A stretch of DNA of 64,000 nucleotides from an uncultured Pseudomonadota bacterium (lineage in GTDB: Bacteria; Pseudomonadota; Gammaproteobacteria; Steroidobacterales; Steroidobacteraceae), in contig CAISDJ010000024.1 in assembly GCA_903884105.1 (NCBI GenBank), positions 1 to 64,000 of the forward strand, in the 5' to 3' direction. Positions 27,142-61,804 of this stretch are shown here, one piece after another (the first letter of the stretch is position 1; the number at the start of each line of letters is the position of its first letter). The notes under the pieces were generated by a model. That model was given only the letters and a program-made list of their open reading frames with translations, did not search any database and was not told where the DNA came from. A program made the translations under genes and the position numbers.

Positions 27142-27163
27142 GGTTCTGTCCTTGGCTGATTCG

Positions 27164-28867: not shown

Positions 28868-28900
28868 CCGTCCTCCCCCTCGTATCCCACTCGTTCTTGA

Positions 28901-29776
28901 TTACTTGCGCGGCTGTCCCAGCCCGAGCGCACGGATCGCGTTTTCTTTCAGGATCAGGTCGTGGACTTCGGGCTTGAAGCCCGCATCCTTGAAGTCGCTG
29001 ATCCAGCGGTCCGGCGTGATCAGCGGGAAATCGGACCCGAACAGCATCTTGGTCTTGAGCTGCTTGTTCGCATATTGCACCAGCTGCGGCGGAAAGTATT
29101 TCGGCGACCAGCCCGACAGATCGATGAAGACATTCGGCTTGTGCAGGCAGACCGACAATGCCTCGTCCTGCCACGGCCACGACGGATGCGCGATGATGAT
29201 CGTGAGGCCGGGGAAATCGGCCGCCACGTCGTCGAGGTGCATCGGGTTCGAATATTTGAGCCGCAGGCCGCCACCGCCCGGCATACCGGTGCCCATGCCG
29301 GAATGCCCGCTGTGAAACAGCGCCGGCAGCCCTGCCTCGGCAATCGCCTCGTACATCGGATAGGCCATGCGGTCGTTCGGAAAGAAGCCCTGCATCGTCG
29401 GATGGAACTTGAAGCCGCGGATACCGTGGTCCTTGATCAGCGTGCGGATCTCGCGCACGCCCATCTTGCCCTTGTGCGGATCGACGCTGCCGAACGCGAG
29501 CATGATGTCCTGGTTGGCCATGGCCGCCTCGGCGACCTCGTCGTTCGGAATACGGCGCACGCCGGTCTGGAACTCCGAGTCCACCGGGAACATGACGAGG
29601 CCGATCTTGCGCTCACGGTAATAGGCAATCGTCTCCGCGATGGTCGGCCGCTTGCCGGCCTTGAAGTACTGGCTGGCGGCGTCCTCGAACGGCTTGCCGT
29701 ATTCGTCCGGCTCGTGACGGCAAGACACTTCGGCATGGGTGTGCACGTCGATGGCGACGAGGTCTTCGATCTTCAT
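28901..29776 (-). CDS. Amidohydrolase family 2 protein
   Basis: A 291-residue cytosolic TIM-barrel metalloenzyme of the ACMSD-like amidohydrolase_2 group (PF04909), which holds decarboxylases and hydrolases of aromatic breakdown. Visible metal motifs are IDVHTHAEVS near the N-terminus, GFKFHPTMQGFFPND, ALFHSGHSG, IIIAHPSWPW and LFGSDFPLITPD at the C-terminal end. The start is ATG 29776, whose ATG overlaps the TGA of the upstream bifunctional enzyme by four bases, so they are translationally coupled. In context it likely acts on a product of side-chain shortening of a phenolic acid, for example as a decarboxylase. That is inference. Confidence 0.85.
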   Translation of the reverse strand: MKIEDLVAIDVHTHAEVSCRHEPDEYGKPFEDAASQYFKAGKRPTIAETIAYYRERKIGLVMFPVDSEFQTGVRRIPNDEVAEAAMANQDIMLAFGSVDPHKGKMGVREIRTLIKDHGIRGFKFHPTMQGFFPNDRMAYPMYEAIAEAGLPALFHSGHSGMGTGMPGGGGLRLKYSNPMHLDDVAADFPGLTIIIAHPSWPWQDEALSVCLHKPNVFIDLSGWSPKYFPPQLVQYANKQLKTKMLFGSDFPLITPDRWISDFKDAGFKPEVHDLILKENAIRALGLGQPRK

Positions 29777-31911: not shown

Positions 31912-31924
31912 TCCATTTCCCTCT

Positions 31925-32410
31925 TCATTCAGTCAGCAGGTCAAGCAAGTGCAGCAACTGGTCGCGTCCGGCGGCGCCCAGGCGTCTCGCAATGGCAGTC
32001 TCGGCACTGCGCAGCGCGTCCGCTGCCTTGCGCAACAGGCGGCGACCGTCCACCGTCAGCACCAGGGCATTCGATCGGCGATCCGCAGCGACTGCCTGAC
32101 GCTCGACGATACCCCGCTCTTCGAGCACGTTGATCAGCGTGACCAGGTTGGCGCGCTGGATACCGAGCGCGGTGCAGACCTCACCCTGCGTGATCCCGGG
32201 AGTGCGTTCGATGAGCGTCAATACGCCCACCTGTCCCGGCCGCAATTCAAGATCACTGAGTTCATGGGTCACCTTCGCGAAGATGGCGAGCTGGGCCCGG
32301 CGCAGCCGATAACCCACCGACTGCTCGAGCAGTCCCATGTCGAACAGTTCAGCTTCAGCATCCGAGGACCGCTTCCGCACTGCAGCCCCGTCCCGGCGAA
32401 TCGCCATCAA
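31925..32410 (-). CDS. MarR family transcriptional regulator
   Basis: A 161-residue winged-helix regulator. It shows LLEQSVGYRLRRAQLAIFAK in the dimerisation helix, LRPGQVGVLTLIERTPGITQ, the recognition helix QRANLVTLINVLEERGIVER and the wing AADRRSNALVLTVDG, then a C-terminal dimer helix. The gene sits inside the catabolic cluster, 13 bases from the bifunctional enzyme and 43 from fcs, all on the minus strand. MarR proteins in such clusters (for example FerC and CouR types) typically repress until a hydroxycinnamoyl-CoA binds. That mode is likely but inferred. A candidate operator lies at 36215-36229 upstream of the cluster. Confidence 0.92.
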   Translation of the reverse strand: MMAIRRDGAAVRKRSSDAEAELFDMGLLEQSVGYRLRRAQLAIFAKVTHELSDLELRPGQVGVLTLIERTPGITQGEVCTALGIQRANLVTLINVLEERGIVERQAVAADRRSNALVLTVDGRRLLRKAADALRSAETAIARRLGAAGRDQLLHLLDLLTE

Positions 32411-32453
32411 TCCCTCTCCTCAAGAATCAGTACGCCGCAGCGATCCGCTGGAT

Positions 32454-34319
32454 TCAGGGCGTCGCGACACAGATCACGGCGGGCCCCGGTTCGCGCGCAT
32501 ACAGCGCTTCGACGAGGTTCGCGCGATTGTCGAGCACGGCACGCTGGTTGATCGTGCCCTTGTCGGTCAGTTCGCCGTTGCCGAGTGCGGGCGGGCTATC
32601 GAGCACGAGCGCACGCGCAATGCTGGTTGAGCCTCCCGGGTGGTCCACCGCGAAGCGATCGAGGCGACGCTGCAGTTCTGCGCGCAGTTCCGGCAATTGC
32701 GCCAGCTGCGCCGCGCCGAGATCGGCAGGGAGATGCGGCAAGTACGCCGCACAGCCGCGTGCGTCGGGAATCAGGAGCGCGCCGAGCCCATCGCGATTCA
32801 GGCCCGCAATCACGACGTCAAGGCACAGCGGAGACAAGGCTGTCAGCAGTGCGGCACGCAACGGCCCGACGCTGACCCACGTTCCCGACGACAGTTTGAA
32901 GTCCTCGGCGATGCGTCCATCGAACATCAGGCCGGCCGCAGGATCGTCCGTGTTGGCAAAGCGCACGGCATCGCCCATGCGGTACCAGCCTTCCCCGTCA
33001 TACGCGGCTGCTGTTCGCTCGGCATCGCGCCAGTAGCCCGGCGTGACCATCGGTCCACGCACGCGGAGCTCGAGCTTGCCGTTCACTGGAACGAGCTTGA
33101 CCAGGCAACCGGCGGCCGGCAGCCCGATGAAACCCGCGCGACTCGTGTTCGTGGCGAACGTGACGCTGGGCGCCGTCTCCGTCGCACCGATGCCGTTGAT
33201 CATCGGGACAGTTTCGCCCCGCTCCCGGCGAGACACCTCGAGGTACCCATTCCACACTTCCTGCGACAGCCCGGCCGCTGCGACGAAGGTCGTCCTCAGC
33301 CGCTTGAAGAAGCTTTCGCGGAGCGCGGAGTCCTGCTGCAGGAAGGGCAGCAGGACTTCGTAGCCGCGCGGCACGTTGAGATAGACAGTGGGAGAGACTT
33401 CGCAGAGGTTGCGGACCGTCTCCTTGATGCCGGCCGGGGTCGGCTTGCCGTAGTCGATGTAGTACGTGCCGCCGTTCATCAGGACGATGCCGATGTTGTG
33501 ACTGCCGCCGAACACGTGGTTCCAGGGCAGCCAGTCCACGAGCACAGGCGGCTCCTTCTCCAGGAACGGCATCGCCTGCAGCAGCGTCGCCTGATTGCTC
33601 ATCAGCATGCGATGCGTGGTGACCACCGCCTTGGGATTGCCCGTGGATCCCGACGTCAGCAGGAACTTGACGATCGAGTCCGGACCCACACGCGCGTGAG
33701 CGGCATCCGCGGCCGCGACGTCGTCCGACGACAGGTCTGCCAGCGCAGTACTGGTTCGACCGAACTCCCGCCCGGTGAGGGTGACCCACTCCCTGTCGCT
33801 GTCCGCGTCGCCGGCGTGCACGGCTTCTACCGCACGCTGGTACTCGGGGCCGCCGAACACGGCAATCAGACCGGGCGTCAACAGCGACAGCACGTACTGC
33901 AGCCGCCCGAGGGCGCCTTCGGTCAGCGAATAGGCAGGCGAGACGGGGACGTATGGAATGCCGACATACATGGCGGCAAGCGCGAGCAGCTGGTGCTCGA
34001 TACTGCTGCCGGAAAGAATGGCGATGGGCCGATCCGGCGAAAGCCGTCTGGCCAGCAGACCGGCGCCCATCCTCCGGACCATCGCGAGCGCCTCGGCATA
34101 ACTGACCCGCACCCACTCGCCTTGTGGTCCGCGCTGCGCAATGAAGGTGCGATCCGGCGCCGCGCTTGCCCAATGTACGAGCCGATCCGTCACGCGCGCC
34201 GGGCAGTCGCGCATCTTTCCCTTGGGCTCCATCAGCCACGCGCCATCCGCCTGCAGCGTGACCGTGCAGTCGTAGGGCGGATCAGCCGTCATTGGCAGGT
34301 CAGTCAGCGGCTTGGGCAT
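32454..34319 (-). CDS. fcs: Feruloyl-CoA synthase (AMP-forming)
   Basis: Activates ferulate and related hydroxycinnamates to CoA thioesters with ATP. The 621-residue protein carries RVTDRLVHWASAAPDRTFIA at the N-terminus and PYVPVSPAYSL. The AMP-binding P-loop is LLTSGSTGNPKAVV (near residue 230), followed by DWLPWNHVFGGSHN, and NGIGATETAPSVTF. The C-terminal MFDGRIAEDFKLSSGTWV replaces the more common GRxKD pattern, as in feruloyl-CoA synthases. These blocks match the Fcs subgroup better than general acyl-CoA synthetases. ATG 34319 overlaps the MFS gene by 20 bases; ATG 34292 is an alternative. It is part of the MFS-fcs-marR-bifunctional enzyme operon. Confidence 0.88.
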   Translation of the reverse strand: MPKPLTDLPMTADPPYDCTVTLQADGAWLMEPKGKMRDCPARVTDRLVHWASAAPDRTFIAQRGPQGEWVRVSYAEALAMVRRMGAGLLARRLSPDRPIAILSGSSIEHQLLALAAMYVGIPYVPVSPAYSLTEGALGRLQYVLSLLTPGLIAVFGGPEYQRAVEAVHAGDADSDREWVTLTGREFGRTSTALADLSSDDVAAADAAHARVGPDSIVKFLLTSGSTGNPKAVVTTHRMLMSNQATLLQAMPFLEKEPPVLVDWLPWNHVFGGSHNIGIVLMNGGTYYIDYGKPTPAGIKETVRNLCEVSPTVYLNVPRGYEVLLPFLQQDSALRESFFKRLRTTFVAAAGLSQEVWNGYLEVSRRERGETVPMINGIGATETAPSVTFATNTSRAGFIGLPAAGCLVKLVPVNGKLELRVRGPMVTPGYWRDAERTAAAYDGEGWYRMGDAVRFANTDDPAAGLMFDGRIAEDFKLSSGTWVSVGPLRAALLTALSPLCLDVVIAGLNRDGLGALLIPDARGCAAYLPHLPADLGAAQLAQLPELRAELQRRLDRFAVDHPGGSTSIARALVLDSPPALGNGELTDKGTINQRAVLDNRANLVEALYAREPGPAVICVATP

Positions 34320-35487
34320 TGATCGGCAACCTGCTGGCAAGGAAGACGGACGCAACGCCTGCGACCACGACGATGGGCAGCATGCCCATCAGCACCTGGG
34401 CGCTCGACTGTCCCGCGCCCAGCAGCGAAGCGGCGAACAAGGGACCGGCGATCGAGCCCAGGCGGCCGACGCCCACTGCGGCCCCGACCGCCACACCGCG
34501 AACGGCGCGCGGATAGCACTTTGGCGCGAAGGCATAAACGATCGCCTGCGCCGCCAGCACGGCAGCACCGAGCACGAAAGCCAGCACCGTGATCGCGCCG
34601 ATACCCGCCTTGGCCAGCAGCAACAACATCACACCGAGTAGCGCGAAGACGAGTCCGGTCGTCAGCATCCGGTTGCCGCGGTCGAGCATGAAGCCGATTG
34701 ACGCAGCCCCCACCGTACCCCCGATATTGAAGATGATCTGCGTGAAGGCCGCGTCGGCGCGCGTCAGACCGATGCCCACCAGCAGCAACGGCAGCCAGTT
34801 CAGCAGGAGGTACAAGAGCAGCAGCGAGAAGAAGAAGCTGCCCCACAGCAGCGCGGTCTTCAGGCCGCGACCATCACCCATGAGTGCCACTGCGAAGCCG
34901 GGCCGCGCGGTCGACCCGCCGGCCGACTGGCTCTGCCACTCGGGTTCCTTGACGAAGTAGAGGAAGGCCAGTGCGATGATGAGCGGCGCCACGCCACCGG
35001 TAACGAATATGACGCGCCAGCTCGCGGGCGTACTGAGCACCGCAACGACGCTCGCAAGCGCCCCGCCGAGCGATACGCCCGAGTACATCAGCGTGACATT
35101 GCGGCTGCGCTTCTCGGGGGCGCTGCTCTCAGCGGTGAGGGCGATCATGTTCGGCATGGCACCGCCGAGACCCAAGCCGGTGAGGAAACGGGTCAGTGTC
35201 AGTGTGTCGATCGTCGTGCAGAAAGCCGTCAGCAGCGAGAACAGGCCGAACAGCGCGAGCGACAGGATGAGCGCGAACTTGCGCCCCTTGCGATCGCCGA
35301 CCCAGCCACCGAACGGGGCGCCGAAGAACAGGCCCACGGTGCTTGCCGCAAAGAAATAACCGAAGACCTGTGGCGAGGGATGCAGCTCTCCCGCGATGCC
35401 GGCTGCAGCCACGCCCGCAGACTGCAGGTCGATGCCCTCGCAGAGCATCGCCAGAAAGCAGAAAAAGACGTTGTGACGACCCTTCAT
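34300..35487 (-). CDS. MFS transporter, aromatic acid:H+ symporter family
   Basis: A 395-residue inner-membrane carrier with 12 predicted helices. Near the N-terminus it has CEGIDLQSAGVAAAGI, the AAHS-family signature position where an aspartate in helix 1 contacts the aromatic acid. GGWVGDRKGRKFAL is the loop 2-3 MFS motif, and GLGLGGAMPNMIALTAE follows in helix 4. These features match PcaK/MhpT-type importers. It is most likely the uptake system for the acids released by the two esterases. Its stop overlaps the fcs start. The upstream neighbour, 84 bases away, is the DUF3237 gene, so transcription may start at either. Confidence 0.9.
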   Translation of the reverse strand: MKGRHNVFFCFLAMLCEGIDLQSAGVAAAGIAGELHPSPQVFGYFFAASTVGLFFGAPFGGWVGDRKGRKFALILSLALFGLFSLLTAFCTTIDTLTLTRFLTGLGLGGAMPNMIALTAESSAPEKRSRNVTLMYSGVSLGGALASVVAVLSTPASWRVIFVTGGVAPLIIALAFLYFVKEPEWQSQSAGGSTARPGFAVALMGDGRGLKTALLWGSFFFSLLLLYLLLNWLPLLLVGIGLTRADAAFTQIIFNIGGTVGAASIGFMLDRGNRMLTTGLVFALLGVMLLLLAKAGIGAITVLAFVLGAAVLAAQAIVYAFAPKCYPRAVRGVAVGAAVGVGRLGSIAGPLFAASLLGAGQSSAQVLMGMLPIVVVAGVASVFLASRLPINAQAAD

Positions 35488-51908: not shown

Positions 51909-52400
51909 TCAGAGCGTGAATCCCGCCCACCTTCCGAATACGATCACGAGGCCCCAGAAGGCAAGGGAGAGTCCGCCGGCCAACCGCGCAGACCCGGGAA
52001 TGGCATCGCTCGTATCCCAAGTGTGCACGTTCTTGTAGGTGACGAAGTGGAACACCATCATGTTCACGCCAGCCAGCAACATGAAAAAGAATTTCAGTCT
52101 CAGCTCCGTATTGTCGAAGTAGCGAACGGGTGTCGAGGAGAAGAGCAGCAGGCCGGAGATCGCTGCCACGACGAATGCGCCCCAGGTCCACGGCAGCAGG
52201 TCGTTCGTCAGCCGCATCACCGACTGGTCGCGGGAAGCCAGCCCGAGCAGCCGCAGATCCACCGCAACGATGGAGCCGACCACCGACACCAGCGCGATGA
52301 CATGCAGTGATTCCAGCATGGGGAACCAGGACGCGCCCTCGCGGATCGCCGTCCCGAGCGCAGAATGCTCGATGCCAAGCAGAAGGTCAGACAGTGCCAT
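51909..52400 (-). CDS. DUF6644-like four-helix membrane protein (type A, copy 1)
   Basis: A 163-residue integral membrane protein with four hydrophobic segments. It starts MALSDLLLGIEHSALGTAIR, then SLHVIALVSVVGSIVAVDLRLLG, GAFVVAAISGLLLFSS, LKFFFMLLAGVNMMVF and FWGLVIVFGRWAGFTL. The conserved histidine in SLHVIAL and the FGRW end match proteins annotated as DUF6644, of unknown function. It pairs with the type B protein encoded directly upstream, and a second A-B pair follows. The helix histidines suggest heme or metal binding, but that is speculation. Confidence 0.8.
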   Translation of the reverse strand: MALSDLLLGIEHSALGTAIREGASWFPMLESLHVIALVSVVGSIVAVDLRLLGLASRDQSVMRLTNDLLPWTWGAFVVAAISGLLLFSSTPVRYFDNTELRLKFFFMLLAGVNMMVFHFVTYKNVHTWDTSDAIPGSARLAGGLSLAFWGLVIVFGRWAGFTL

Positions 52401-52439
52401 GATTGGGAGTCTCCGAAGGCAGGCGTAAGGCGGGAACCA

Positions 52440-52943
52440 TCAAGCGTGATACGCAATCCAGCGGCCGGCGACGATGATCAACAGCCACAGCGTCAGGGAT
52501 GCCACCGCGAACAGTCGTGCCGACACGGGCACGTCCGCCGAGCTTCCCCAGCCGCCTGACTGCGCGGCCACGCGCCGCTGCATGAACAGGGTGAGCACGA
52601 CCACGCAGAGCAGCATCGCCATCTTCGACTGGAACTCCCAGGTCGTCAGCGACCTGGCCGGTTCCGCGATCAGCAGCAGCAGGCCGGTCAGCGTCATCAC
52701 CACCAGCGCGATCCAGATCCCCGGGACGAACCGCTGCACGGTTCTGGACAGCGCCTGGTGCACGCGGACCAGCCCCAGGATGTGCAGGTCAATGATCGCG
52801 GCCGACGAAAACAGGATGGCCAGTGCCATGTAGTGGACCGACTGCGACGCGGGGATGAGCCACAGGTGGGAGGTGAAGAAGTTGCTCAAGGGCGTGGTGG
52901 CGATCCACGCAGCGAAATCACTGATGGCGGCGCTCGGCATCAC
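52440..52943 (-). CDS. DUF6644-like four-helix membrane protein (type B, copy 1)
   Basis: A 167-residue membrane protein. It starts MMPSAAISDFAAWIATTPLS, has SQSVHYMALAILFSSAAIIDLHILG in helix 1-2, the segment PARSLTTWEFQSKMAMLLCVVVLTL, and ends LLIIVAGRWIAYHA. It shares a fold with the type A protein (helix-1 histidine, DLRxLG motif, GRW end), but also has TTWEFQSKM, seen only in the B type. It lies 39 bases upstream of the type A gene, on the same strand. Confidence 0.8.
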   Translation of the reverse strand: MMPSAAISDFAAWIATTPLSNFFTSHLWLIPASQSVHYMALAILFSSAAIIDLHILGLVRVHQALSRTVQRFVPGIWIALVVMTLTGLLLLIAEPARSLTTWEFQSKMAMLLCVVVLTLFMQRRVAAQSGGWGSSADVPVSARLFAVASLTLWLLIIVAGRWIAYHA

Positions 52944-53123
52944 GTTACTCCCTGATTTTGGCGGACCTGTCCGCCTAGTTCATATATTAAATGGATGATC
53001 CGGCAGGGACCGGCTGCTGCGGAATCCGCAGAACCACGTATGCACTCCGCAGTGCCCGCCTCCGCCGGGCACCGCGAGAGGACTCGACCAGGCAAGCCGC
53101 CAGGGAACCTCTGCACAGGGTCC

Positions 53124-53618
53124 CTAGAGCGTGAATCCCACCCACCGGCCGAAGAAGATCACGATGCACCACAACAGGATCGAGAACGCGCCGGCGACCC
53201 GCGCGGAGGTGGGGATGCCGTCCTGGCCCAGATCCCACTTGTCGACATTCCTGTACGTGATGAACTGGAACACGAGCATGTTGATGCCCGCGAGCAGCAT
53301 GAAGAAGAACTTGATGCGGATATAGGTGTTATCGAAGTACCGCTGCGGCGTCGCCGAGAACATCAGCAGGCCCGTGGCGAGCGCGAGGCCAAAGGCGCCC
53401 CACGTCCATGGCAGCAGGTCCTTGTGCAGCGTGGTGATCCTGAGGTCACGGAACGCCATGCCGAGCAGCCTGAGGTCGATGAACACGATCGTGCCGACGA
53501 CGAGCGTCAATGCGATCACGTGGATCGACTCAAGGAACGGGAAGTACGGCCCGCCTTCACGAATCAGCGTGCCGATGGCGGAATTCTCGATGGTCAGGAA
53601 GAAGTCGCTCAAGGCCAT
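53124..53618 (-). CDS. DUF6644-like four-helix membrane protein (type A, copy 2)
   Basis: A 164-residue paralogue of the 51909-52400 gene: MALSDFFLTIENSAIGTLIR, ESIHVIALTLVVGTIVFIDLRLLG, LKDLLPWTWGAFGLA-type HKDLLPWTWGAFGLALATGL, FFFMLLAGINMLVFQF and IVIFFGRWVGFTL. Identity to copy 1 is clearly high over the full length, so this is a duplication. A 180-base gap separates it from the first A-B pair; its own B partner is 46 bases upstream. Confidence 0.8.
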   Translation of the reverse strand: MALSDFFLTIENSAIGTLIREGGPYFPFLESIHVIALTLVVGTIVFIDLRLLGMAFRDLRITTLHKDLLPWTWGAFGLALATGLLMFSATPQRYFDNTYIRIKFFFMLLAGINMLVFQFITYRNVDKWDLGQDGIPTSARVAGAFSILLWCIVIFFGRWVGFTL

Positions 53619-53664
53619 TTCTTGTTCTCCTGGATCTGCAGCGATGTCTGGCGTCGGCCACGGT

Positions 53665-54168
53665 TCAGGCGTGGTACGCGATCCAGCGGCCAGCGAGGAT
53701 GATCAGCATCCACAGCGCCATTGAGCTGACGGCGGCGACCCGCGCGCCACCGGGGGCCGCAGGCGCCGCATCCCACTGGGCCGCGTTGGCTACCACCGTT
53801 CTCTTCAAGGACACGGTGAGGATGACGACAATCACCAGCATCACCATCTTCGACTGGAACTCCCACGTGGTGATCGAGCGCACCGGCTCCGCGATCATCA
53901 ACAGGAGGCCGGTTAGCGCGGCACCGGTGAGCCCGATCCAGATGCCGGGCGTCAGGCGCGTGGTCAGACTGGAGAGAGTCTGGTGCCGGGCTATCAATCC
54001 GAGGATGCGCAGGTCGACGACGACCGCCGTGGAGAACAGGATCGCGAGCGACATGTAGTGGAACGACTGGATAGTAGGAATCGCCCACATGTGCCCGCCG
54101 ATGAGGTGGGCGAGCCAGGTCGTTGCAATCCATTCGGCAAAGGCATTCAGCGGTCCGGCATCTGGCAT
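53665..54168 (-). CDS. DUF6644-like four-helix membrane protein (type B, copy 2)
   Basis: A 167-residue paralogue of the 52440-52943 gene: ASFHYMSLAILFSTAVVVDLRILG-like QSFHYMSLAILFSTAVVVDL, PVRSITTWEFQSKMVMLVIV and a final LIILAGRWIAYHA identical to copy 1 at its end. The start is ATG 54168 (MPDAGPLNAFAEWIATTWLA); further upstream in-frame sequence lacks homology. It is the first gene of the four-gene array, and the promoter should lie in the 250-base region shared divergently with the aspartic protease gene. Confidence 0.8.
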   Translation of the reverse strand: MPDAGPLNAFAEWIATTWLAHLIGGHMWAIPTIQSFHYMSLAILFSTAVVVDLRILGLIARHQTLSSLTTRLTPGIWIGLTGAALTGLLLMIAEPVRSITTWEFQSKMVMLVIVVILTVSLKRTVVANAAQWDAAPAAPGGARVAAVSSMALWMLIILAGRWIAYHA

Positions 54169-54421
54169 GGCGCTCCCCTTCTTGCGATCTCCGCATGCGG
54201 AACGGCGGGAACGATCGTCGGAGTCCCACCGCCAATCGTGTGTACGCCTCATGCACACGAATCCTCAGCCGTCTGCGAACAGTCCTTAGCTGCCTCGCGA
54301 TGTTCCTTAGCCGTGGTGCGTCGCGACTAACGCCGCCTTGCTTCCCATCCGTAAATACCGAAGACTTGAGGCCTGTCGTACCCGGGCGCTGAGCTTGAAC
54401 CAAGAGCCAAGTACACCCGCA

Positions 54422-55414
54422 ATGAAGCCCCCCTGTCTCGGCCACAACCCATTGACCCGAAAGGACATTTCGCTCCTTGGGGCGCTGGTTTCCGGCGCTT
54501 TCCTGGCCGCTTTTCCGACGGTTTCCGGAGCCGCTTCGGCCCCCTCGTCCCGGAGCTACGGCGAGGTCGAACTCGAGGAAATCATCATCAGCGCGCCCGA
54601 GCCCCGCTATGTGGCGCCGACCAAGCGCGACAAGATCGGACGGATCTGGGCACCGGTTTATATCAATGAGAAGGGGCCGTTTCGCCTCGTGCTGGACACC
54701 GGCGCGAGCCACACCGGCATCCGGGCCAGCGTGGCAGAAGCGCTGCAGCTCAAACCCAACAAGGCGGAGCAGGTCCGGGTGCGCGGCGTCACGGGGACGA
54801 ACGTGGTCTCGACTATCCGCGTCGACTCACTGGTGATGGGCGACATGGAACTGCGCGGCAAGAAGCTGCCCATCATCACCGACCCACTCGGCGGCGCCGA
54901 AGGCATCCTTGGCTCCGAGGGCATGGAAGGGAAGCGGATCTACATCGACTTCATCAATGACTTCATCCGCATCAACCGCTCGCGCGGCGAACCCGCACCC
55001 GAAAAATTCATCACGATCCCGATCAAGTTCCTGCACGGCAACCTGCTCACGATCGACGCCATGATCGGCCGGGTAGCGGTCAAGGCCATCATCGACACGG
55101 GAGGCGAGGTCACCATTGCCAACCTGGCCGCCCGCGACGCGCTGGTCCGCAATCCAACGAATCCGATCATCGACATGATTGCCGGAGCCACGACGGACGT
55201 CGAGCCCGCCGAGCGCTACGGTACCCCGCCGATCGTCATCGGCAACATCGTGATCCGCACGACGCGGACCAGCTTTGCCGACCTGCACATCTTCAAGCAC
55301 TGGGAACTGACCGAGGAACCGGCGATCCTGATCGGCATGGATGCGCTCGGACTTCTCGATACGCTGATCATCGACTACGAGCGCGCGGAACTGCAGCTGA
55401 AAATGCGGACTTAG
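54422..55414 (+). CDS. Secreted retropepsin-like aspartic protease with two DTG motifs
   Basis: A 330-residue protein with a signal region (hydrophobic core LLGALVSGAFLAAF) and an acidic linker. Two retropepsin-like repeats follow: FRLVLDTGASHTGI with Asp92, and VKAIIDTGGEVTIANL with Asp225. Each is followed by the family's ILG/IG-type turn (GAEGILGSEGM; EEPAILIGMDAL). A single chain with two active-site triplets resembles a fused pepsin-like dimer rather than an HIV-type homodimer. The target is unknown. ATG 54422 is preferred; the frame is open 84 bases upstream but that part is not protein-like. It is divergent from the DUF6644 array. Confidence 0.85.
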   Translation: MKPPCLGHNPLTRKDISLLGALVSGAFLAAFPTVSGAASAPSSRSYGEVELEEIIISAPEPRYVAPTKRDKIGRIWAPVYINEKGPFRLVLDTGASHTGIRASVAEALQLKPNKAEQVRVRGVTGTNVVSTIRVDSLVMGDMELRGKKLPIITDPLGGAEGILGSEGMEGKRIYIDFINDFIRINRSRGEPAPEKFITIPIKFLHGNLLTIDAMIGRVAVKAIIDTGGEVTIANLAARDALVRNPTNPIIDMIAGATTDVEPAERYGTPPIVIGNIVIRTTRTSFADLHIFKHWELTEEPAILIGMDALGLLDTLIIDYERAELQLKMRT

Positions 55415-55436
55415 GCCCTCCGCTCTGCCCGCTTGT

Positions 55437-56516
55437 CTACGAGCCCGCCTTCCGCGGCGCACTTTCCAGCAGCTTCGCGAGTTCCGTCTTCCAGAACTTC
55501 GCCTGGGCAGTCGTGCCATGGCCTGCCGTCTGCTCGCTCGCGGGAATCAGCACCACGCGACCGCCTTTCACGCGTTTGATCTCGCGGTCGAGCAACCCCA
55601 GCGACGGGGGATTGCGTTCATCGTCTGCCGAATTGATGGCGAGCAGCGTCGACTCGATGCGCTCGAGACCGGCTGCCGGGTTGTAGTCGCGCGAAGCAGC
55701 CCACTGATACAGCAGGTCATTGGCATCGGCCCGGAAGGGCGCGGAGAGCCGCTGGTTCAACAGCTGATCCGCCTGGGCCTGCGTCGGCGCGGCCTTGTAC
55801 AGTGCCTGCTCGCCGCCGGCGGTCGCGATGCCGTAGAAAACGGACGCCAACTGGGCGCTGCGCGGCTGCTGCGTGTATTCACCATTCATCCATTCGGGAT
55901 CGCTGCGAATCGAGTCGATGATCAGCCGGCGCATCATCCAGTTGCGGCCGGACATCTCCGACGGAGTCGAGGCCATCGGCACCGCAACGTCCATGGCTTT
56001 GGGATACTTCGTGGCCCAGAGCCATGTCTGCATGCCACCCATTGAATTGCCGATCACGACCCGCAGGTGCCTCACCTTGAGATGTTCAGTGACGAGGCGG
56101 TACTGCGCCTCCACCATGTCGTCGTAGTTGTACTGCGGGAACTTCATCCGCAACCCGTCGGAAGGCTTGGCCGAATCCCCCGCACCGATCGCATCCGGAA
56201 GGATGAGGTAATAGCGGCTGGCATCGAGCGGCTGGCCGGGCCCGAACAGCTCGCCGGCGAACCCCGCATTCAGGAACGCAGCGCCCGATCCCGCGGTGCC
56301 ATGGAGGATCAGCACCGGCTCACCCGTCGATGCACCGACGGTCGTGTAGTGCAGGCGCAGATCGGGCAGCACTTCGCCCGTATGAAAGCGGAAGTCCTTC
56401 ACCACCCAATCGCCCTGGACCGGCGCGGGATAGTCTGCAGCACGAGTTGGCGGCGCGATCATGGCAACGGGCAGACCCAGCATCGTAACAGCGACGAGGT
56501 CGGTCAGCTTCATCAC
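55437..56516 (-). CDS. Secreted alpha/beta hydrolase of the homoserine O-acetyltransferase (MetX) family
   Basis: A 359-residue protein with a signal peptide (about 1-27, ending PTRAADYP). The catalytic elbow is VVIGNSMGGMQTW (Ser158) in the MetX style, with LPDAIGAGDSAKPS preceding it, the acid in LLAINSADDERNPP and the His in EQTAGHGT. MetX enzymes are cytosolic; export and loss of methionine-pathway neighbours argue for a different substrate. It is the last gene of a six-gene operon of secreted enzymes; the cupin gene ends 11 bases upstream. Confidence 0.85.
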   Translation of the reverse strand: MMKLTDLVAVTMLGLPVAMIAPPTRAADYPAPVQGDWVVKDFRFHTGEVLPDLRLHYTTVGASTGEPVLILHGTAGSGAAFLNAGFAGELFGPGQPLDASRYYLILPDAIGAGDSAKPSDGLRMKFPQYNYDDMVEAQYRLVTEHLKVRHLRVVIGNSMGGMQTWLWATKYPKAMDVAVPMASTPSEMSGRNWMMRRLIIDSIRSDPEWMNGEYTQQPRSAQLASVFYGIATAGGEQALYKAAPTQAQADQLLNQRLSAPFRADANDLLYQWAASRDYNPAAGLERIESTLLAINSADDERNPPSLGLLDREIKRVKGGRVVLIPASEQTAGHGTTAQAKFWKTELAKLLESAPRKAGS

Positions 56517-56527
56517 AGGCTACCGCC

Positions 56528-56986
56528 TCACTTGGCGCCGACTCGCGTGGAGGTCACTGGGCCAATACCGTAGATGATGACTTCGCACGCCTCATCCTTG
56601 GCGCCGTCGTAATGCACCTTGCCTGCGAAATGCACGGCGGTGCTGCCGGTCGGCGCAGCCTTGGTGCTCGCCGGGTCGAATTTCTCGCCAGTACCCATCC
56701 ACCACGTGCCGGAAACCACGACGACGAAGCGGTCCGTGTTGTGGGTGTGCGGTCGCGACATCGTGCCCGCGGAAAAGCGGTTGCGGATGGCATAAGGACC
56801 GGGCTTGTTGGGGTCGCCATACAGCACGACGCTCTTGAGGCCCGGATACTCGGTGCTGTCCGTCCACTTGAGCTCGCCCGGGAGCTTGTGGCTCATCACC
56901 GCCGGATCCGGCTCCGCAGCCGATACGGCCGTGAGCACCAGCGCGAGCAATGTCATCAGGCCCAGTCGAACAGACAGCGTGTGCAT
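56528..56986 (-). CDS. Secreted cupin-domain protein
   Basis: A 152-residue protein with a signal peptide (about 1-23, ending AVSAAEP). The cupin core shows NRFSAGTMSRPHTHNTDRFVV (metal-site histidines His-x-His), VSGTWWMGTGEKFD and VHFAGKVHYDGAKDEACEV. This matches the small single-cupin family often annotated as DUF4437-like or cupin; the reaction is not known. The ATG at 56986 begins MHTLSVRLGLMTLLALVL. It lies in the six-gene operon, 60 bases downstream of the MBL gene. It could be a metal-dependent isomerase, decarboxylase or dioxygenase. Confidence 0.85.
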   Translation of the reverse strand: MHTLSVRLGLMTLLALVLTAVSAAEPDPAVMSHKLPGELKWTDSTEYPGLKSVVLYGDPNKPGPYAIRNRFSAGTMSRPHTHNTDRFVVVVSGTWWMGTGEKFDPASTKAAPTGSTAVHFAGKVHYDGAKDEACEVIIYGIGPVTSTRVGAK

Positions 56987-57046
56987 AGTCCTTCCCCCGC
57001 TCAAGAATGTGAATCGTGATCCGTGGACAAGCCGGTCAAGCCCTGC

Positions 57047-57967
57047 TCAAGGCTTCAGGCTGCGATAAACGATACGAACGAAGACATCAGGCTTGATGTA
57101 CCCGGTGCCCCACGTTGCGTCGAACTCGCGCGTGGGCTGGGCCGCCACGGCCTGGTCCTCGGTGAGCCCCTGGTCGATGAGCTTCTGCACGCTGTCGCGG
57201 GACTTCTTCAGCACGTCGAGATAAACCTTGAGCGCGGCGGGACCGGGCGCCGGCAGCGGTCCATGACCCGGAATGAATCGCGACGTCGCATTGGACATCG
57301 CAAGCACGCGCTCGACGGCTGCGATCGTGCCCTGGAGCGACCCGCCCGAGCCATCCTTGCCCGCATCGATGCGTGGATACACGCCGTTCCAGAAGACGTC
57401 CGCCAAGTGGAAGACGTTGGCGTTCTGGTAGTGGACGATGGCGTCGCCGTCCGTATGCGCGTTCGGCACATGGATCAGCCGGACGGTCTCGCCGTTGAGG
57501 TTCAGCGTGAGGCTGTCCGTGAACGTCACGATGGGCAGCGCAGCGGCTGGCGATGCCGGACCGTCGTACTTGAACAAGGGCAGCTTCTGCGGCGAGCTGA
57601 GGCGCGTCCGTACATTCACATGCGCAACGATGGGGAGACCCAACGCGCCGAGATTTTCGTTGCCGCCAGTATGGTCGCCGTGCCAGTGGGTATTGACGAC
57701 CATGCGCAGCGGCTTGTCGGTCAGCGTGCGGATGCTGGCGAGGATCTTGGTCGTGAGCGGCGCATATTGATCGTCAACGAGGAGCGCTCCTTCCGGGCCC
57801 GTGAGCAGCGACATGTTGCCGCCCGACCCCGCCAGCATGTACACGCCGGGCGCGACCTGTTCAGGCTTGATCTGCACGGCGGAGAAGTCCTGCTGCGCAA
57901 GTGCCGGCATGAGGCCGGAGGTGAAGAGCAAGGCAGCGGCAGCGATGCGGCGGGGATACAACGTCAT
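57047..57967 (-). CDS. Secreted MBL-fold metallo-hydrolase
   Basis: A 306-residue protein with a signal peptide (about 1-24, ending PALAQQ). The metallo-beta-lactamase fold has THWHGDHTGGNE (His94, His96, Asp98, His99), LIHVPNAHTDGDAIVHY and FIPGHGPLP for the remaining zinc ligands. Many members hydrolyse lactones, esters or glutathione adducts. It belongs to the cupin/MBL/NTF2 operon; start ATG 57967, and the NTF2-like gene ends 25 bases upstream. Substrate is unknown. Confidence 0.88.
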   Translation of the reverse strand: MTLYPRRIAAAALLFTSGLMPALAQQDFSAVQIKPEQVAPGVYMLAGSGGNMSLLTGPEGALLVDDQYAPLTTKILASIRTLTDKPLRMVVNTHWHGDHTGGNENLGALGLPIVAHVNVRTRLSSPQKLPLFKYDGPASPAAALPIVTFTDSLTLNLNGETVRLIHVPNAHTDGDAIVHYQNANVFHLADVFWNGVYPRIDAGKDGSGGSLQGTIAAVERVLAMSNATSRFIPGHGPLPAPGPAALKVYLDVLKKSRDSVQKLIDQGLTEDQAVAAQPTREFDATWGTGYIKPDVFVRIVYRSLKP

Positions 57968-57992
57968 GGGTCAGTCTCCGGGGCAGATCGAA

Positions 57993-58514
57993 TCAGCGTC
58001 CCGTCACGGGCGGGGCTGCAGGTTGCGGGGGTGCGTTGAGTCCGTCCTTCCAGCCCTTCTCGAGCTTCAGCGCGTCCCAATGCTCGGCCAGCTTACCGTC
58101 GCGGATCCGCAGCGTCTCGAAATTGAAGGCTTCGTAGGTCTTGGCCTGATCGTCGGGATCCGGCAGCACCGCCTTGAAGATGAGCGTCACCAGGTCGCCC
58201 TCCGCCATCATGATCACCGGCGTGCCGCTCAGCCTGAAATCGGGATCCGTCACGCGGATCTTGCCGCGCGCCATGTTGGCCGCATCGAGCCACGCCTGCG
58301 GGCCATGCATGCCCGTGAGCGCAACGAAGCGTGGGTTGTGCTGGATGTAGTCGTCCGTGAGCATCTTCTTGCGCTCCTCGCCAACGGACGTGGCAAAGAA
58401 CTTGAGGACCAGCTGCTTGTTGGCCTCCAGTCGTGCCGCCTCGGCAGCCGACTGCTGCGCCAACGCAGGCATGGCGAAGCCCAATGCAAGGATCAGTGTG
58501 AACACGTAACGCAT
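57993..58514 (-). CDS. Secreted NTF2-like (SnoaL-type) protein
   Basis: A 173-residue protein with signal peptide MRYVFTLILALGFAMPALAQ. The NTF2-fold has EANKQLVLKFFATSVGEERK, DDYIQHNPRFVALTGMHGPQ, FRLSGTPVIMMAEGDLVTLIFKAVL and KTYEAFNFETLRIRDGKLAEHWDAL. The QHNP and HWDA blocks are typical of the SnoaL-like family. Some SnoaL relatives are cyclases or isomerases of polyketide-like aromatics. The proline-rich C-terminus (PPQPAAPP) is unusual. It lies in the operon, 17 bases downstream of the uncharacterised gene. Confidence 0.87.
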   Translation of the reverse strand: MRYVFTLILALGFAMPALAQQSAAEAARLEANKQLVLKFFATSVGEERKKMLTDDYIQHNPRFVALTGMHGPQAWLDAANMARGKIRVTDPDFRLSGTPVIMMAEGDLVTLIFKAVLPDPDDQAKTYEAFNFETLRIRDGKLAEHWDALKLEKGWKDGLNAPPQPAAPPVTGR

Positions 58515-58531
58515 ATCGCCTCCAGGTGCTG

Positions 58532-59491
58532 TCAGCGGACCGCCCACCCCGGGTTATCCGGGGCGGATGGATCCAGATAGAACATCGCCGCGTAGATCGA
58601 CTCGATCTTCTCGTTCCTGCCCACGAAGAACTCGGTCAGCAGGTTGCGCTTGATCGTGGCGCCCGGGGGACGATGGAAGATCGTGGTGCCCATGGCAACA
58701 CCGACCTCCTCGTCGACGACCGGGAAGCGACGATGGGCGGCCTGCGTGATATTTGCAGCGACAGTTTCCATGTCCGCCGCGCAGTCACCCGACATGCCGG
58801 TCGGTGCGGGCGCTGCAGCTGGTGCGGCGGCCGGCGCAGCCCCGGGCAATGCGCCGAGCGGAGCAGTACGCGGACGGTGCGTGACCTTCACTCCGTTCTC
58901 GACCCGCTCGCAGCCATCGATGTGCGGGATCTTCGAGCCATTCTTTGCTTCCAGCCCATCGAAGTAGGCATTGCCCATGGCGATCAGCTGGGCGCGAGTG
59001 GGGCGGTCCTGGGCTGGAACAGGCGTGTCGGGCCGGGGCGGCAACGCCGTCAGTCCTTCAATCGAGAAGAGACCGCCGTATTCCTTGCGGGCGACGGTCC
59101 ACTCCGCTTCTGCGACTTTGCGACCTTCGATCTTCAGCCGCACGGACACGATGACAGGGTCCGCGCCTTCATTGAGGATCCCGAAGAACACGGCTTGGCG
59201 TTCGCGAACATCGAAATAGCGGCGTTCGACTGCGCCGTATCCCGTCACGGACTTCCAGACGCCGCTGCCCTGCTCCAGATCCACCGCGTTGACGGTGGCT
59301 CGCGTCTTCGCTGCCAGAGGCGCGGCCTGCGGATCATGGCGGAAGACGGCGGCGAAGTACTGGTCCATGACACCGCGCATGCAGGCGCGATCGCACTTGT
59401 CATCCGCAGCACCTGCCGTGGTGCTCACACTGCCAAGGGCAAGCGCGATGCCGGCGAGTCCCCACACCCTGCCCGTGACCCGTGCCTTCAT
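58532..59491 (-). CDS. Secreted protein of unknown function in the periplasmic operon
   Basis: A 319-residue protein with a signal peptide (about 1-28, ending TTAGAADD). The mature part begins CDRACMRGVMDQYFAAVFRH, then LEQGSGVWKSVTGYGAVERRYFDV, IEGRKVAEAEWTVARKEYGG, an Ala/Pro-rich linker (GAAPAAAPAAAPAP), a cysteine-bearing segment (SGDCAADMETVAANI) and a C-terminal half-repeat with VDEEVGVAMGTTIFHRPPGA. It seems to hold two NTF2-like halves linked by the Ala/Pro stretch, which fits proteins annotated as DUF8021. Its activity is unknown. It is the second gene of the six-gene operon. Confidence 0.75.
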   Translation of the reverse strand: MKARVTGRVWGLAGIALALGSVSTTAGAADDKCDRACMRGVMDQYFAAVFRHDPQAAPLAAKTRATVNAVDLEQGSGVWKSVTGYGAVERRYFDVRERQAVFFGILNEGADPVIVSVRLKIEGRKVAEAEWTVARKEYGGLFSIEGLTALPPRPDTPVPAQDRPTRAQLIAMGNAYFDGLEAKNGSKIPHIDGCERVENGVKVTHRPRTAPLGALPGAAPAAAPAAAPAPTGMSGDCAADMETVAANITQAAHRRFPVVDEEVGVAMGTTIFHRPPGATIKRNLLTEFFVGRNEKIESIYAAMFYLDPSAPDNPGWAVR

Positions 59492-59575
59492 GACGGCTCC
59501 CCCGTGTTGTTCTGATTGGAATCGACCGGCCGATGCGCAGCCTACCTCAAGGCCTCGCGCAATGCCTCTGCCATC

Positions 59576-60211
59576 TCATCGCGGCATCGGTACGAGCGGC
59601 GGTTTGACGCCCTGCGGCACGGGCGTCCGCGCCGTGTTCAGCACCATGCCGAGCAGGCTGTAGTAGCCCACGAGCCCGACTGTATCCATGACGCCCTTTT
59701 CGCCGAACCGGGCCACCATGCGGGCGTACGTGGGATCGCTGATGCTGCGGTTGCGCTGCAGCTCCAGGCAGAAGTCATACAGCAGCGTTTCGTCGTCACT
59801 CATGCCCTCGGGACGTCGCCCGTCGGCGATCGCCTGCGCAATCTTCGGGTCGATGCCTGCCTTCATGGCGTCGGCATGGTGGACGTTCCATTCGTATTGC
59901 TGTGTCCATTCACGAGCCGTGAACAGGATGACGAACTCGCTCAAGCGAGGGGGCAGGCTGGTGCGATAGCGCAGGTACTCGCCCATCGCGCTGGCGCGGA
60001 CCATCAGGTCGGGGCTACGCATCAGCGGCACGAAGGGACCGAAGGGCTCCCGCCCTCGCACGGCCTGGAATTCCTTCACGAACTCCTTCTGTTCCGCGGT
60101 AACCTTGTCGGCCGGAATCGGCGGCAACCGGTCCTGCGCGACGGCGATCGATGCGATCAAGCCCATGGCAAGGACGGCAGACGTCATGATTGGCTTGCGG
60201 AACTGCAACAT
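59576..60211 (-). CDS. Secreted carboxymuconolactone decarboxylase-like protein
   Basis: A 211-residue protein. It starts MLQFRKPIMTSAVLAMGLIA, giving a signal peptide ending SIAVAQD. The helical CMD/AhpD-like core shows YLRYRTSLPPRLSEFVILFT, YEWNVHHADAMKAGIDPKIA, ADGRRPEGMSDDETLLYDFC and GLVGYYSLLGMVLN. The usual AhpD CxxC is absent (here EWNVHH), so it is closer to the lactone decarboxylase group than to peroxidase-coupled AhpD. AGGAG lies six bases before ATG 60211. It is the first gene of the six-gene operon of exported enzymes. Confidence 0.85.
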   Translation of the reverse strand: MLQFRKPIMTSAVLAMGLIASIAVAQDRLPPIPADKVTAEQKEFVKEFQAVRGREPFGPFVPLMRSPDLMVRASAMGEYLRYRTSLPPRLSEFVILFTAREWTQQYEWNVHHADAMKAGIDPKIAQAIADGRRPEGMSDDETLLYDFCLELQRNRSISDPTYARMVARFGEKGVMDTVGLVGYYSLLGMVLNTARTPVPQGVKPPLVPMPR

Positions 60212-60338
60212 CAAACTCTCCTGATCGTAAGACTGCGACGAATGGCTATCGTCGAACGGTAAGCGACTTCCTGGTGAATTTAAAGAGAGATCCAGCGTGC
60301 GCAACTGTAATCGCAGCCCCAGGCATGGCGACCGCTTG

Positions 60339-60655
60339 CTAGCCCGCCGCCTCGCCGCCCTCCGGCCCATAGAACGCCACCCAGACCGAGAAGTCCGGTG
60401 AGAAGTCTGCAAAGCGATGCACCTGGCCGGTTGCGGCGAACAGGAACGCGCCCGCCTCAACGGGATAGCGTCGCTCGCCATCGAAAAACAGCCCCTTGCC
60501 CCTGGCAATGACTGTAGATCTCGTCCCTCGTGTGCGGCGTCTGCCCGTCATGCCCGAGCGGCGAACACTGGCACCGCGGCGTTGCCGGGCGGCGGCGGGC
60601 CTAGCTTCAAGGCGTCGACGAGGGAGAGGTGGAAGGTGGGAGGGGATGGAGTCAT
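60339..60655 (-). pseudogene. Cupin gene broken by two frameshifts
   Basis: Starting from ATG at 60655 the frame reads MTPSPPTFHLSLVDALKLGP and onward to VFAARA, then stops. The continuation HDGQTPHTRDEIY lies in a second frame, and VIARGKGLFFDGERRYPVEA onward to GPEGGEAAG lies in a third. Read together they give a complete small cupin of about 105 residues (metal-site H...H in QTPHTRDEIY, later His in GQVHRF). Two indels are needed, so the gene is inactive unless sequencing errors caused them. The last residues FYGPEGGEAAG are intact. It lies directly upstream of the periplasmic operon. Confidence 0.7.
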
Positions 60656-60775
60656 GGGTGAGGGGTGATTGATGGGTAGGGGTGCAACCCACCCAATGAG
60701 CATCGACCGGCCAGCTCTGCTGGTTTAGGGCCTGGCCGCAGACTCCAAATGACATCCGCATATGGCCGACTCCGT

Positions 60776-60886
60776 CAGCAAATGACCTGTCGGCAGGCCA
60801 GCAAGCGAGAGCCCGAAAGACGACGAGACGAGGCTGTCGCTCCGCTTATCCACTTTCATTCTGGCCTGCCGGCAGGTCATTTGCTG
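60776..60886. repeat. Inverted-repeat element, family member 3
   Basis: Arms 60776-60801 and 60861-60886 (26 bp, one mismatch) around a 59-base loop. The core is CCTGTCGGCAGG / CCTGCCGGCAGG. A flank near 60937-60956, read on the minus strand, matches the ACCGGCCAACTTCGTT flank of the 8.4 kb element with few changes. It occupies the 60656-60962 gap, which holds no gene. Confidence 0.75.
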
Positions 60887-60962
60887 TCCGATGCCCTGGC
60901 CAGGGCGCAGGTCGGCCATTTGTCGTTAGACCATTTGCCAGTGAAGCTGGCCGGTGGGCTCT

Positions 60963-61274
60963 TCACTCCGAATGCAGATGCACCGCCAGCCACACCGCGC
61001 CCTCGGAGACTCGCTCGACCGTATGCGGCACTCGCGCCGGTAAGAACACGTAGTCGCCGCCGTTGAGTTCAACGGGCTCGCCACCGATGGTCATCGTGGC
61101 CTCGCCGTTGAGAAGCACGACCCATTCGTCCTGTGGCTGCAGATACTCGGCGCGTATCGTGGAAGCAGGACTGACGATCCGCTCGACCACAAGGTTCTTG
61201 TGCTCAAGTAGCGTCTCGAAGCGCTCGCCATCAGGCGAAGGCGCTGCGTTCTTGAACAGGTTGCCGATGCGCAT
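60963..61274 (-). CDS. Small cupin-domain protein
   Basis: A 103-residue single cupin with no signal peptide. It starts MRIGNLFKNAAPSPDGERFE, has YLQPQDEWVVLLNGEATMTIGGEPVELNGGDYVFLPARVPHTVERV, the standard cupin motif 1 and 2 (QPQDEWVVLLxG; LPAxVPHxV with His), and ends AVWLAVHLHSE. A metal-binding role is likely but the reaction is unknown. It lies 53 bases from bfr on the same strand and may be co-transcribed. Confidence 0.85.
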   Translation of the reverse strand: MRIGNLFKNAAPSPDGERFETLLEHKNLVVERIVSPASTIRAEYLQPQDEWVVLLNGEATMTIGGEPVELNGGDYVFLPARVPHTVERVSEGAVWLAVHLHSE

Positions 61275-61327
61275 GGCCAGAGACTGCGGCTACCAACCGG
61301 CCGGCATCGCAGCGCGCGCTCGCCGGC

Positions 61328-61804
61328 TCAGCTGCCTTCCTGCATGTGCGACTGGCAATAGTTCGGCAGTCCGACCCGTTCGATCAGTTGCAGCTGCGTT
61401 TCGAGCCAGTCGATGTGCTCCTCCTCAGACTCGAGGATTTCCTCGAACAACTCGCGCGAGACGTAGTCGCCTGCGGTTTCGCAGTCAGCGATGGCCGCCT
61501 TGAGGTCGGGATGCGCCATGCGCTCGATCTTGAGGTCGCACTCGATGACTTCCTTGACGTCCTCGCCGATCAGCAGCTTGCCGAGATCCTGCAGGTTGGG
61601 CAGGCCTTCCAGGAACAAGATGCGCGCGACGAGCTTGTCCGCGTGCTTCATCTCGTCGATGGATTCCTCGTACTCGTGCTTCTCAAGTCGCTTGAGACCC
61701 CAGTTGCCGTACATCCGCGAGTGCAGGAAGTACTGGTTGATGGCCGTCAGTTCGTTCTTCAGCACCACGTTCAAGTGGCGAATGACGGTGGGATTGCCTT
61801 TCAT
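61328..61804 (-). CDS. bfr: Bacterioferritin
   Basis: Heme-binding iron-storage protein forming a 24-subunit shell. The 158-residue product has every ferroxidase ligand at E. coli numbering: Glu18, Glu51, His54, Glu94, Glu127 and His130. It also has Met52 as heme ligand in [10 protein letters not shown]. Sequence blocks [20 protein letters not shown] and [17 protein letters not shown] match Bfr. bfd lies upstream on the same strand and mobilises the stored iron. A Fur-like site at 62182-62197 precedes bfd. Confidence 0.97.

Follow-up and report, generated by a model that had tools for sequence, protein, structure and literature searches.

We identified a row of six genes on the minus strand at 55437-60211 of a 64-kb stretch of DNA (hereafter the window), which forms part of contig C24 (126,817 bases) in the 3.73-Mb draft genome of a freshwater bacterium. 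From gene 1 to gene 6, the row encodes a protein with a predicted carboxymuconolactone decarboxylase (CMD)/AhpD fold, a protein that is probably a tandem of NTF2/ketosteroid isomerase (KSI)-like domains, a single-domain NTF2-like protein, a metallo-beta-lactamase (MBL)-fold hydrolase, a cupin and a MetX-like alpha/beta hydrolase. The six products resemble enzymes whose substrates are aromatic compounds or esters of the plant type. The six-gene row is real and conserved at the level of the genus, and falls short of a demonstrated new pathway. We tentatively favour, as possible rather than probable, its interpretation as a genus-specific operon for the periplasmic processing of an ester or lactone of the plant-phenolic type.

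All six open reading frames (ORFs) were recovered by ORF calling, and the gaps between successive genes, from gene 1 to gene 6, measure 84, -16, 25, 42 and 11 bases. The negative value, an overlap of 16 bases between genes 2 and 3, becomes a gap of 17 bases if gene 3 starts at ATG 58514 instead of GTG 58547 (57993-58547), and we consider ATG 58514 the likelier start because it is preceded by a GGAGG stretch. Alternative starts were also noted for gene 5 (TTG 57004 or ATG 56986) and gene 6 (GTG 56516 or ATG 56513). The genes lie on a single strand, are separated by short gaps and keep their order in a second species, and they probably form one transcript. No sigma-70-like site was found by a consensus scan of 55300-61400, and a promoter and terminator scan of the locus yielded no more than did shuffled sequences. 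An earlier note on this DNA had described six minus-strand genes with gaps of 11-84 bases, which are present with spacing that agrees; its family assignments are likewise upheld, three of them (CMD, SnoaL_2 and Cupin_7) at scores below the Pfam cut-offs.

The same gene order was found in a sister species, the sole other genome of the genus that we compared, which is a metagenome-assembled genome from Lake Erken (77% complete). This congener carries genes 1-4 at the end of one contig (CAIUGU010000049.1, here C49, 17,478 bases, isolate ErkenSummer_bin-6785) and genes 5 and 6 at the end of another (C275), with 87% and 84% DNA identity to the window, respectively. Gene order is collinear with the window, outer neighbours included, and the proteins are 87-94% identical (90% for gene 1). 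Purifying selection was observed on five of the six genes, the ratios of nonsynonymous to synonymous substitution rates (dN/dS) between the two species being 0.10 for gene 1, 0.08 for gene 2, 0.06 for gene 4, 0.07 for gene 5 and 0.09 for gene 6. Gene 3 gave a ratio of 0.58, with both dN and dS low (dS 0.058), because a tract of about 0.7 kb (57840-58560) that is 93-100% identical to the congener, most flanking bins being near 72-95%, spans gene 3 and enters both of its neighbours. Constraint specific to gene 3 was rejected, as the tract extends beyond this gene, and recombination between the two species is the likely source of the similarity.

Both contig ends of the congener carry an inverted-repeat element at the junction of the MBL and cupin genes (L143:12354-12479 and L144:14790-14888). 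The ends share a 32-base inverted match that includes GGGAACCTCTGATTAA and lies at the stop codon of the MBL gene on one contig and before the cupin gene on the other; this motif is absent from the window. It is likely that an inserted element, possibly an insertion sequence, occupies the gap between the two genes in the congener, where no contig spans it.

Joint export of the six proteins is likely, judging from their N-termini. Signal peptides had been noted on all six, and a home-made leader rule (not a trained predictor), which requires a hydrophobic core, a net positive n-region and small residues at -3 and -1, was passed by five of the six N-termini in the window and by all six in the congener. 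The exception is gene 6 of the window, which fails because Asp5 brings its net charge to 0; its PRK06489-type homologues pass in five of five cases. Among other stretches of the window used as controls, the rule flagged 11 of 35 (two of the 35 being mis-framed), all 11 of them plausible exported or membrane/envelope proteins, and the cytosolic enzymes, guaA, guaB, gcv and fadB among them, all went unflagged (labels assigned by eye). A looser gene-level rule flags four of the six operon genes, missing gene 6 and also gene 1, the latter because the ORF caller had extended its start.

For gene 1, the Pfam CMD score (19.2 bits against a cut-off of 23) does not reach the level of family membership. 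A structural model built on three sequences (predicted local distance difference test score, pLDDT, 63) matched 3lvy, 2ijc and 7xw1 with a Foldseek probability of 1.00 (best E 1.9e-3), and realignment by VIA gave Z scores of 15.3 to the AhpD-like chains 2gmy/3lvy and of 10.1 to the 4-carboxymuconolactone decarboxylase 4g9q, with the next unrelated rows at about 5. Gene 1 is accordingly predicted to have the AhpD/CMD helical fold. It shares with the 4-carboxymuconolactone decarboxylase/AhpD superfamily this predicted fold and an E-x-x-x-H motif (EWNVHH), and differs in its sub-threshold Pfam score, in the lack of a CxxC motif and in being exported by the leader rule. Residues E107 and H111 are common to all seven aligned gene 1 proteins (those of the window and congener among them), and in all seven the leader is closed by AQDR or AEDR. 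An identity as AhpD peroxidase was ruled out, since the redox CxxC pair is missing and the whole protein contains a single cysteine.

Gene 2 returned no Pfam match at E<=0.1. Its AlphaFold2 model, built on 14 sequences (the window and 13 loci from the scan described below; mean pLDDT 59.6), contains two helix-plus-sheet units as its structured parts. Residues 31-138 and 163-308 each match KSI/NTF2-like chains at VIA Z scores of about 8.3-9.2, only a little above the values of 7-8 that the tool calls common, with a root-mean-square deviation (rmsd) of about 2.5-3.7 A over about 86-113 residues and about 5-15% identity in the listed rows. Foldseek matches were weak (best E 0.026), and the structural realignments of both gene 1 and gene 2 cover only chains that Foldseek had ranked. 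Because the VIA rows agree with each other, we read gene 2 as probably a tandem NTF2/KSI-like double domain, at the level of fold only and not far above noise, and the operon would therefore encode three NTF2/KSI-like domains. The protein would share the cystatin-like NTF2 fold, apparently present twice, with ketosteroid isomerase, SnoaL and 3rga, from which it is set apart by its low sequence identity and the moderate confidence of its model. Two relatives of gene 2, of about 50% identity, are part of longer open frames, which span 578 residues in G034 and 591 in G020. In the latter (L120:7141-8916), the gene-2-like domain stands behind an N-terminal half that looks like SMP-30/gluconolactonase in a translation read by eye; such a fusion hints at lactone chemistry.

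Gene 3 scores 25.2 bits against the SnoaL_2 cut-off of 27, and gene 5 scores 17 bits against the Cupin_7 cut-off of 27 and keeps an HxH (HTH) metal-site-like motif. Sequence searches of the PDB with the CMD (single sequence and profile), cupin and NTF2 proteins gave no match at the limits used. Gene 4 exceeds the cut-off for Lactamase_B (54.4 bits against 22.7) and has a complete set of zinc motifs (HWHGDH, AHTD, ADVFW and PGHG), features that mark it as an MBL-fold metallohydrolase. Its nearest curated models belong to the SoxH-like quinoprotein-relay group (SoxH_rel_PQQ_2, 94.6 bits against a cut-off of 280), and its nearest solved chains are 8d2z and the chlorothalonil dehalogenase 6uxu (phmmer, E 2e-11 and 7e-11). 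It is thus alike to SoxH-type metallohydrolases and chlorothalonil dehalogenase in its zinc-site motif and best superfamily scores, but falls far below the SoxH cut-off and has only moderate phmmer matches. We ruled out a class B beta-lactamase from NCBIfam scores of 39 bits against 200 for B1, 36 against 240 for B2 and 31 against 240 for B3.

Gene 6 lies above the cut-off for PRK06489 (NF005071; 541.2 bits against 305). A MetX homoserine acyltransferase was ruled out (TIGR01392, 101.7 against 500 bits), and the score is also far below the succinyltransferase cut-off. The GxSxGG nucleophile elbow was present in 34 of the 34 gene 6 matches above 100 bits, in the stretches read. Gene 6 therefore resembles the PRK06489/MetX-like hydrolases, including E22-type esterases, in its PRK06489 score, its GxSxGG motif and the leaders of its homologues, and differs by its scores from MetX acetyl- and succinyltransferases. 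One homologue, 68% identical, is found on a Variovorax plasmid. Catalytic motifs are intact in both the MBL and the MetX-like protein.

Table 1. The six genes of the row, with predicted products and the evidence for each.
Gene	Predicted product	Position	Strand	Evidence
Gene 1	Exported CMD/AhpD-fold protein, 211 aa	59576..60211	-	Pfam CMD below cut-off; fold match; leader rule passed
Gene 2	Exported, probably tandem NTF2/ketosteroid-isomerase-like protein, 319 aa	58532..59491	-	Predicted fold; leader rule passed
Gene 3	Exported single-domain NTF2/SnoaL-like protein, 173 aa	57993..58514	-	SnoaL_2 below cut-off; leader rule passed
Gene 4	Exported zinc MBL-fold hydrolase, 306 aa	57047..57967	-	Lactamase_B; HWHGDH and PGHG; leader rule passed
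Gene 5	Exported cupin with HTH metal-site-like motif	56528..57004	-	Cupin_7 below cut-off; leader rule passed
Gene 6	Probably exported MetX-like alpha/beta hydrolase with GNSMGG nucleophile elbow	55437..56516	-	PRK06489

In the processing operon that we favour, six soluble proteins exported to the periplasm would act on one small-molecule route. A phenolic-type ester or lactone would enter through the outer membrane and be opened by the MetX-like serine hydrolase, the zinc MBL hydrolase or both. The NTF2/KSI-like and CMD-fold proteins may then hold the product or convert it by isomerisation, hydration or decarboxylation, and the cupin may act on it or bind it; the resulting acid would pass to the cytosol through an aromatic-acid symporter and be finished there. 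The set looks as though this lineage had put it together out of exported families that are able to sit near tannases or feruloyl esterases in unrelated bacteria. Order, spacing, selection, likely leaders and motifs are read from the sequence and the folds of two members are predicted from models, whereas the steps and substrate of the route are what we infer. The complete pathway proposed in the earlier note is unproven, as family scans of the operon revealed neither a transporter nor an oxygenase family.

To our knowledge, multi-step periplasmic catabolism has been established for few compounds, with quinate the well-known case. If the six proteins act together, they would constitute a differently built example, and would give a first role to exported proteins of the CMD-like and tandem NTF2-like kinds; proteins of these kinds recur in Acidobacteriota and in some of the Gammaproteobacteria genomes examined. 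The periplasmic pathway that turns quinate into protocatechuate in Acinetobacter (PMC4213383) is a precedent for a route of this kind that forms an aromatic compound. Its enzymes (QuiA, QuiB and QuiC) resemble the proposed route in that they convert a plant-type compound serially in the periplasm and deliver an aromatic acid to the cytosol (PMC4213383). No quinate dehydrogenase or dehydratase family was found among the matches of the six proteins. In the literature searches made, none of the titles or openings of abstracts concerned the present gene set.

We investigated the distribution of the operon in 147 genomes of the order (its own included), which were searched with genes 1, 2, 3, 5 and 6 at E<=0.001; the distribution of the MBL gene is known from its own genome, plasmids and neighbourhood reads only. 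Matches were found in 33 genomes for gene 1, 10 for gene 2, 15 for gene 3, 29 for gene 5 and 135 for gene 6, those to gene 6 with at least 55% identity occurring in five genomes, the operon's own included. Among the matches listed, only two pairs lay within 6 kb, both of weak homologues: an NTF2-like and a gene-2-like gene in G108 (4.2 kb start to start), and a CMD-like and a cupin-like gene in G055 (5.3 kb). Members 11-16 kb apart, again weak homologues among the matches listed, were seen in G136, G132 and G120. When 20 stretches around the best matches in relatives were searched by tblastn, the bait was recovered and the sole additional operon member was an MBL gene, in two stretches (21% and 34% identity). 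Finally, a one-genome-per-species scan with a four-sequence alignment of gene 2, run via two short peptide patterns and reaching close relatives only, returned 13 loci, with genes 1-4 together in the congener only.

A widespread occurrence of the whole set was therefore rejected, given that homologues stand apart within the order and that the plasmid contexts of the MetX-like and CMD genes have other partners. The operon set appears to be genus-specific and was not found outside the genus in these searches. The earlier note had asked for a check of co-occurrence in other genomes, and had regarded its proposal as refuted if signal peptides were not supported by prediction or if the genes were not conserved together in relatives. 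Five of six leaders in the window and all six in the congener pass our home-made rule, and the gene set is conserved in the same order in the sister species; beyond this one species, no three of the five genes searched were seen together among the matches listed for the 147 genomes of the order.

More distant neighbourhoods were identified through gene 2, homologues of which occur in 19 of 150 genomes of an order in Terriglobia, a class of the Acidobacteriota. In one locus of this order (L164), a CMD-like gene, whose product is 26% identical to gene 1, a gene 2 homologue and a tannase gene stand in one row, the first two adjacent on one strand and the tannase 46 bases on. In two orthologous loci, a CMD-like gene adjoins gene 2 on the same strand (L233) or is separated from it by one gene (L235). 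In three further loci, orthologous to one another (L210, L215 and L216), gene 2 is accompanied by a tannase, a fused MBL and an exported xylose-isomerase-like protein; elsewhere, a tannase lies about 4 kb from gene 2 (L212) and an MBL gene is convergent with it (L214, the same locus as L156). Variovorax SRS16 holds a CMD-like gene, an amidohydrolase and a tannase together. The Acidobacteriota loci are like the operon in having a tandem NTF2 gene together with CMD-like genes, MBL-like genes or both. They differ in that some hold tannases or an exported xylose-isomerase-like protein, and we saw nothing in them that matched the cupin, the MetX-like or the single NTF2 gene. The pairing of CMD and tandem NTF2 proteins provides a small functional lead for a protein without a Pfam match. 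We additionally noted that the fused protein at L210:4362-6068 has an MBL domain lacking HxHxDH behind an exported N-terminal domain with no Pfam match, and that similar sequence is found next to an MBL gene in one control stretch (L277).

We compared 64 selected stretches, containing 73 genes of the gene 2 family, with 20 hand-picked control stretches from the same genomes. Of the 73 genes, nine had an MBL gene within 5 kb, six a tannase, four a CMD gene and one an NTF2 gene. The numbers expected, calculated by hand from about 133 Mb of sequence with 237 matches to tannase and 96 to CMD, are about 1.3 for tannase and about 0.53 for CMD, so that the uncollapsed counts of six and four each give P 0.002; strong enrichment of tannases near gene 2 was rejected once orthologous loci were counted once. 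At the level of whole genomes, tannase was present in all 27 tandem-positive genomes examined (27 of the 31 positives found) and in none of 14 named control genomes. Within the order, all 10 tandem-positive genomes had it, against 31 of the 137 negative ones (hypergeometric 1e-6), an association that is inflated because the genomes are related; within the window's own family, it was present in 3 of 3 against 3 of 21 (P 0.01). Of 243 neighbours of the tandem genes, 110 passed the looser leader rule, against 81 of 282 control genes (odds ratio 2.05). We regard the phenolic link as a lead, and not as a finding.

The window itself contains a tannase/acyl-CoA ligase/MFS cluster at 25489-35487, about 20-30 kb from the operon. 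This cluster holds two tannase/feruloyl esterases (25489-28867; 455 and 373 bits), about 27-30 kb from the operon end, together with an Amidohydro_2 protein, a FadB-like protein, a PRK12582-type acyl-CoA synthetase (675 against a cut-off of 777) and an MhpT-like symporter (398 against 410), and its content is compatible with hydroxycinnamate catabolism. No tannase gene lies inside the operon, and glycine-cleavage, ispG and lysA-like genes (identified by eye) stand between the two, which are not one unit. The link to this ferulate cluster that had been suggested is consequently indirect: what speaks for it is that homologues stand beside tannases elsewhere, those of two operon members in Acidobacteriota and of one in Variovorax.

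Several observations weigh against a common periplasmic route. In the congener, the MBL and cupin genes are separated by an element or by a contig break. Among the matches listed for the five genes searched (MBL excepted), three members occur together in none of the 147 genomes, and MetX homologues elsewhere stand in unrelated contexts. With orthologous loci counted once, the tannases near 5 of the 64 loci reduce to three independent cases, which is not significant (about 1.3 expected, P 0.14), and CMD genes show modest proximity (three independent against about 0.53, P 0.017). Tannase is in any case common in one family (f6), where it was found in 18 of 22 genomes, 7 of 7 tandem-positive and 11 of 15 negative, and where the tandem-positive genomes do not stand out. 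The fused MBLs of the three orthologous loci lack HxHxDH, and therefore are not clear functional counterparts of gene 4. The control stretches (286 genes) also hold one CMD and one MBL gene, both in L277 (1 of 20). Finally, 17 of the 57 called genes in the window pass the looser leader rule, so that six exported genes in a row are not rare in themselves.

It is almost as likely as the processing operon that the row is a loose exported island, in which co-expressed secreted proteins have unrelated roles and no common pathway, and came together because dense clusters of exported paralogous families exist in this lineage and its relatives. The frequency of leaders in the window would fit such an island, as would the scatter of homologues among relatives, the company of other exported-looking proteins in which CMD and MBL stand in L277, and the presence of about five further MBL genes in the same genome, at 35-36% identity to gene 4. 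It accords less well with the very tight spacing, the order kept in the congener, the purifying selection on five of six genes and the repetition of the CMD-tandem adjacency in a distant phylum. In a more specific proposal, the exported, non-redox CMD-fold protein and the tandem NTF2/KSI-like protein would form a recurring catalytic pair in a self-contained periplasmic route for a phenolic ester or lactone. The pair recurs in Acidobacteriota, once directly with a tannase, and would have been expanded here with MBL, cupin and PRK06489 proteins, with normally cytosolic chemistry done outside. We consider this more specific proposal unlikely.

Detoxification or chemical defence, in which a xenobiotic, an antibiotic-like lactone or a haloaromatic is inactivated in the periplasm and not eaten, is rather unlikely as well. 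The nearest solved chains to gene 4 include the hydrolytic dehalogenase of chlorothalonil, a zinc enzyme whose substrate is a chlorinated aromatic nitrile (PMC12784990), and the debrominase Bmp8 has the same CMD fold as gene 1; these matches, however, are only at superfamily level. No beta-lactamase model reached its cut-off, macrolide-esterase models match the MetX-like protein insignificantly (E 0.05-0.08), and family scans detected no regulator or efflux family in the operon. We judge it improbable that the six proteins serve the cell envelope or secondary metabolism by modifying a polyketide-like, polyene or lipid product that is exported: SnoaL/KSI folds are found among polyketide cyclases and in 3rga, a two-domain epoxide hydrolase that is among the matches of gene 2 (Z 8.4, but with an rmsd of 15.7 over both domains), but no polyketide-type or lipid-export gene was recognised beside the operon in translations read by eye, most of them without a family scan.

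Further features were noted on either side of the row. A small, leaderless cupin gene persists as a remnant (60339..60655, minus strand) immediately upstream of gene 1 and was not counted in the operon; the gene is intact in the congener (L143:8692-9045, Cupin_2, 32 bits) and is broken in the window, or else reflects an error in the draft assembly. Also upstream, an inverted-repeat unit of 121 bases (60771-60891) has 31-nt arms that are 90% complementary and 59 nt apart, in a region that aligns poorly to the congener. On the other side, at 51909-54258 on the minus strand, four small membrane-protein-like ORFs stand in a row and, by eye, resemble two tandem pairs of one family.

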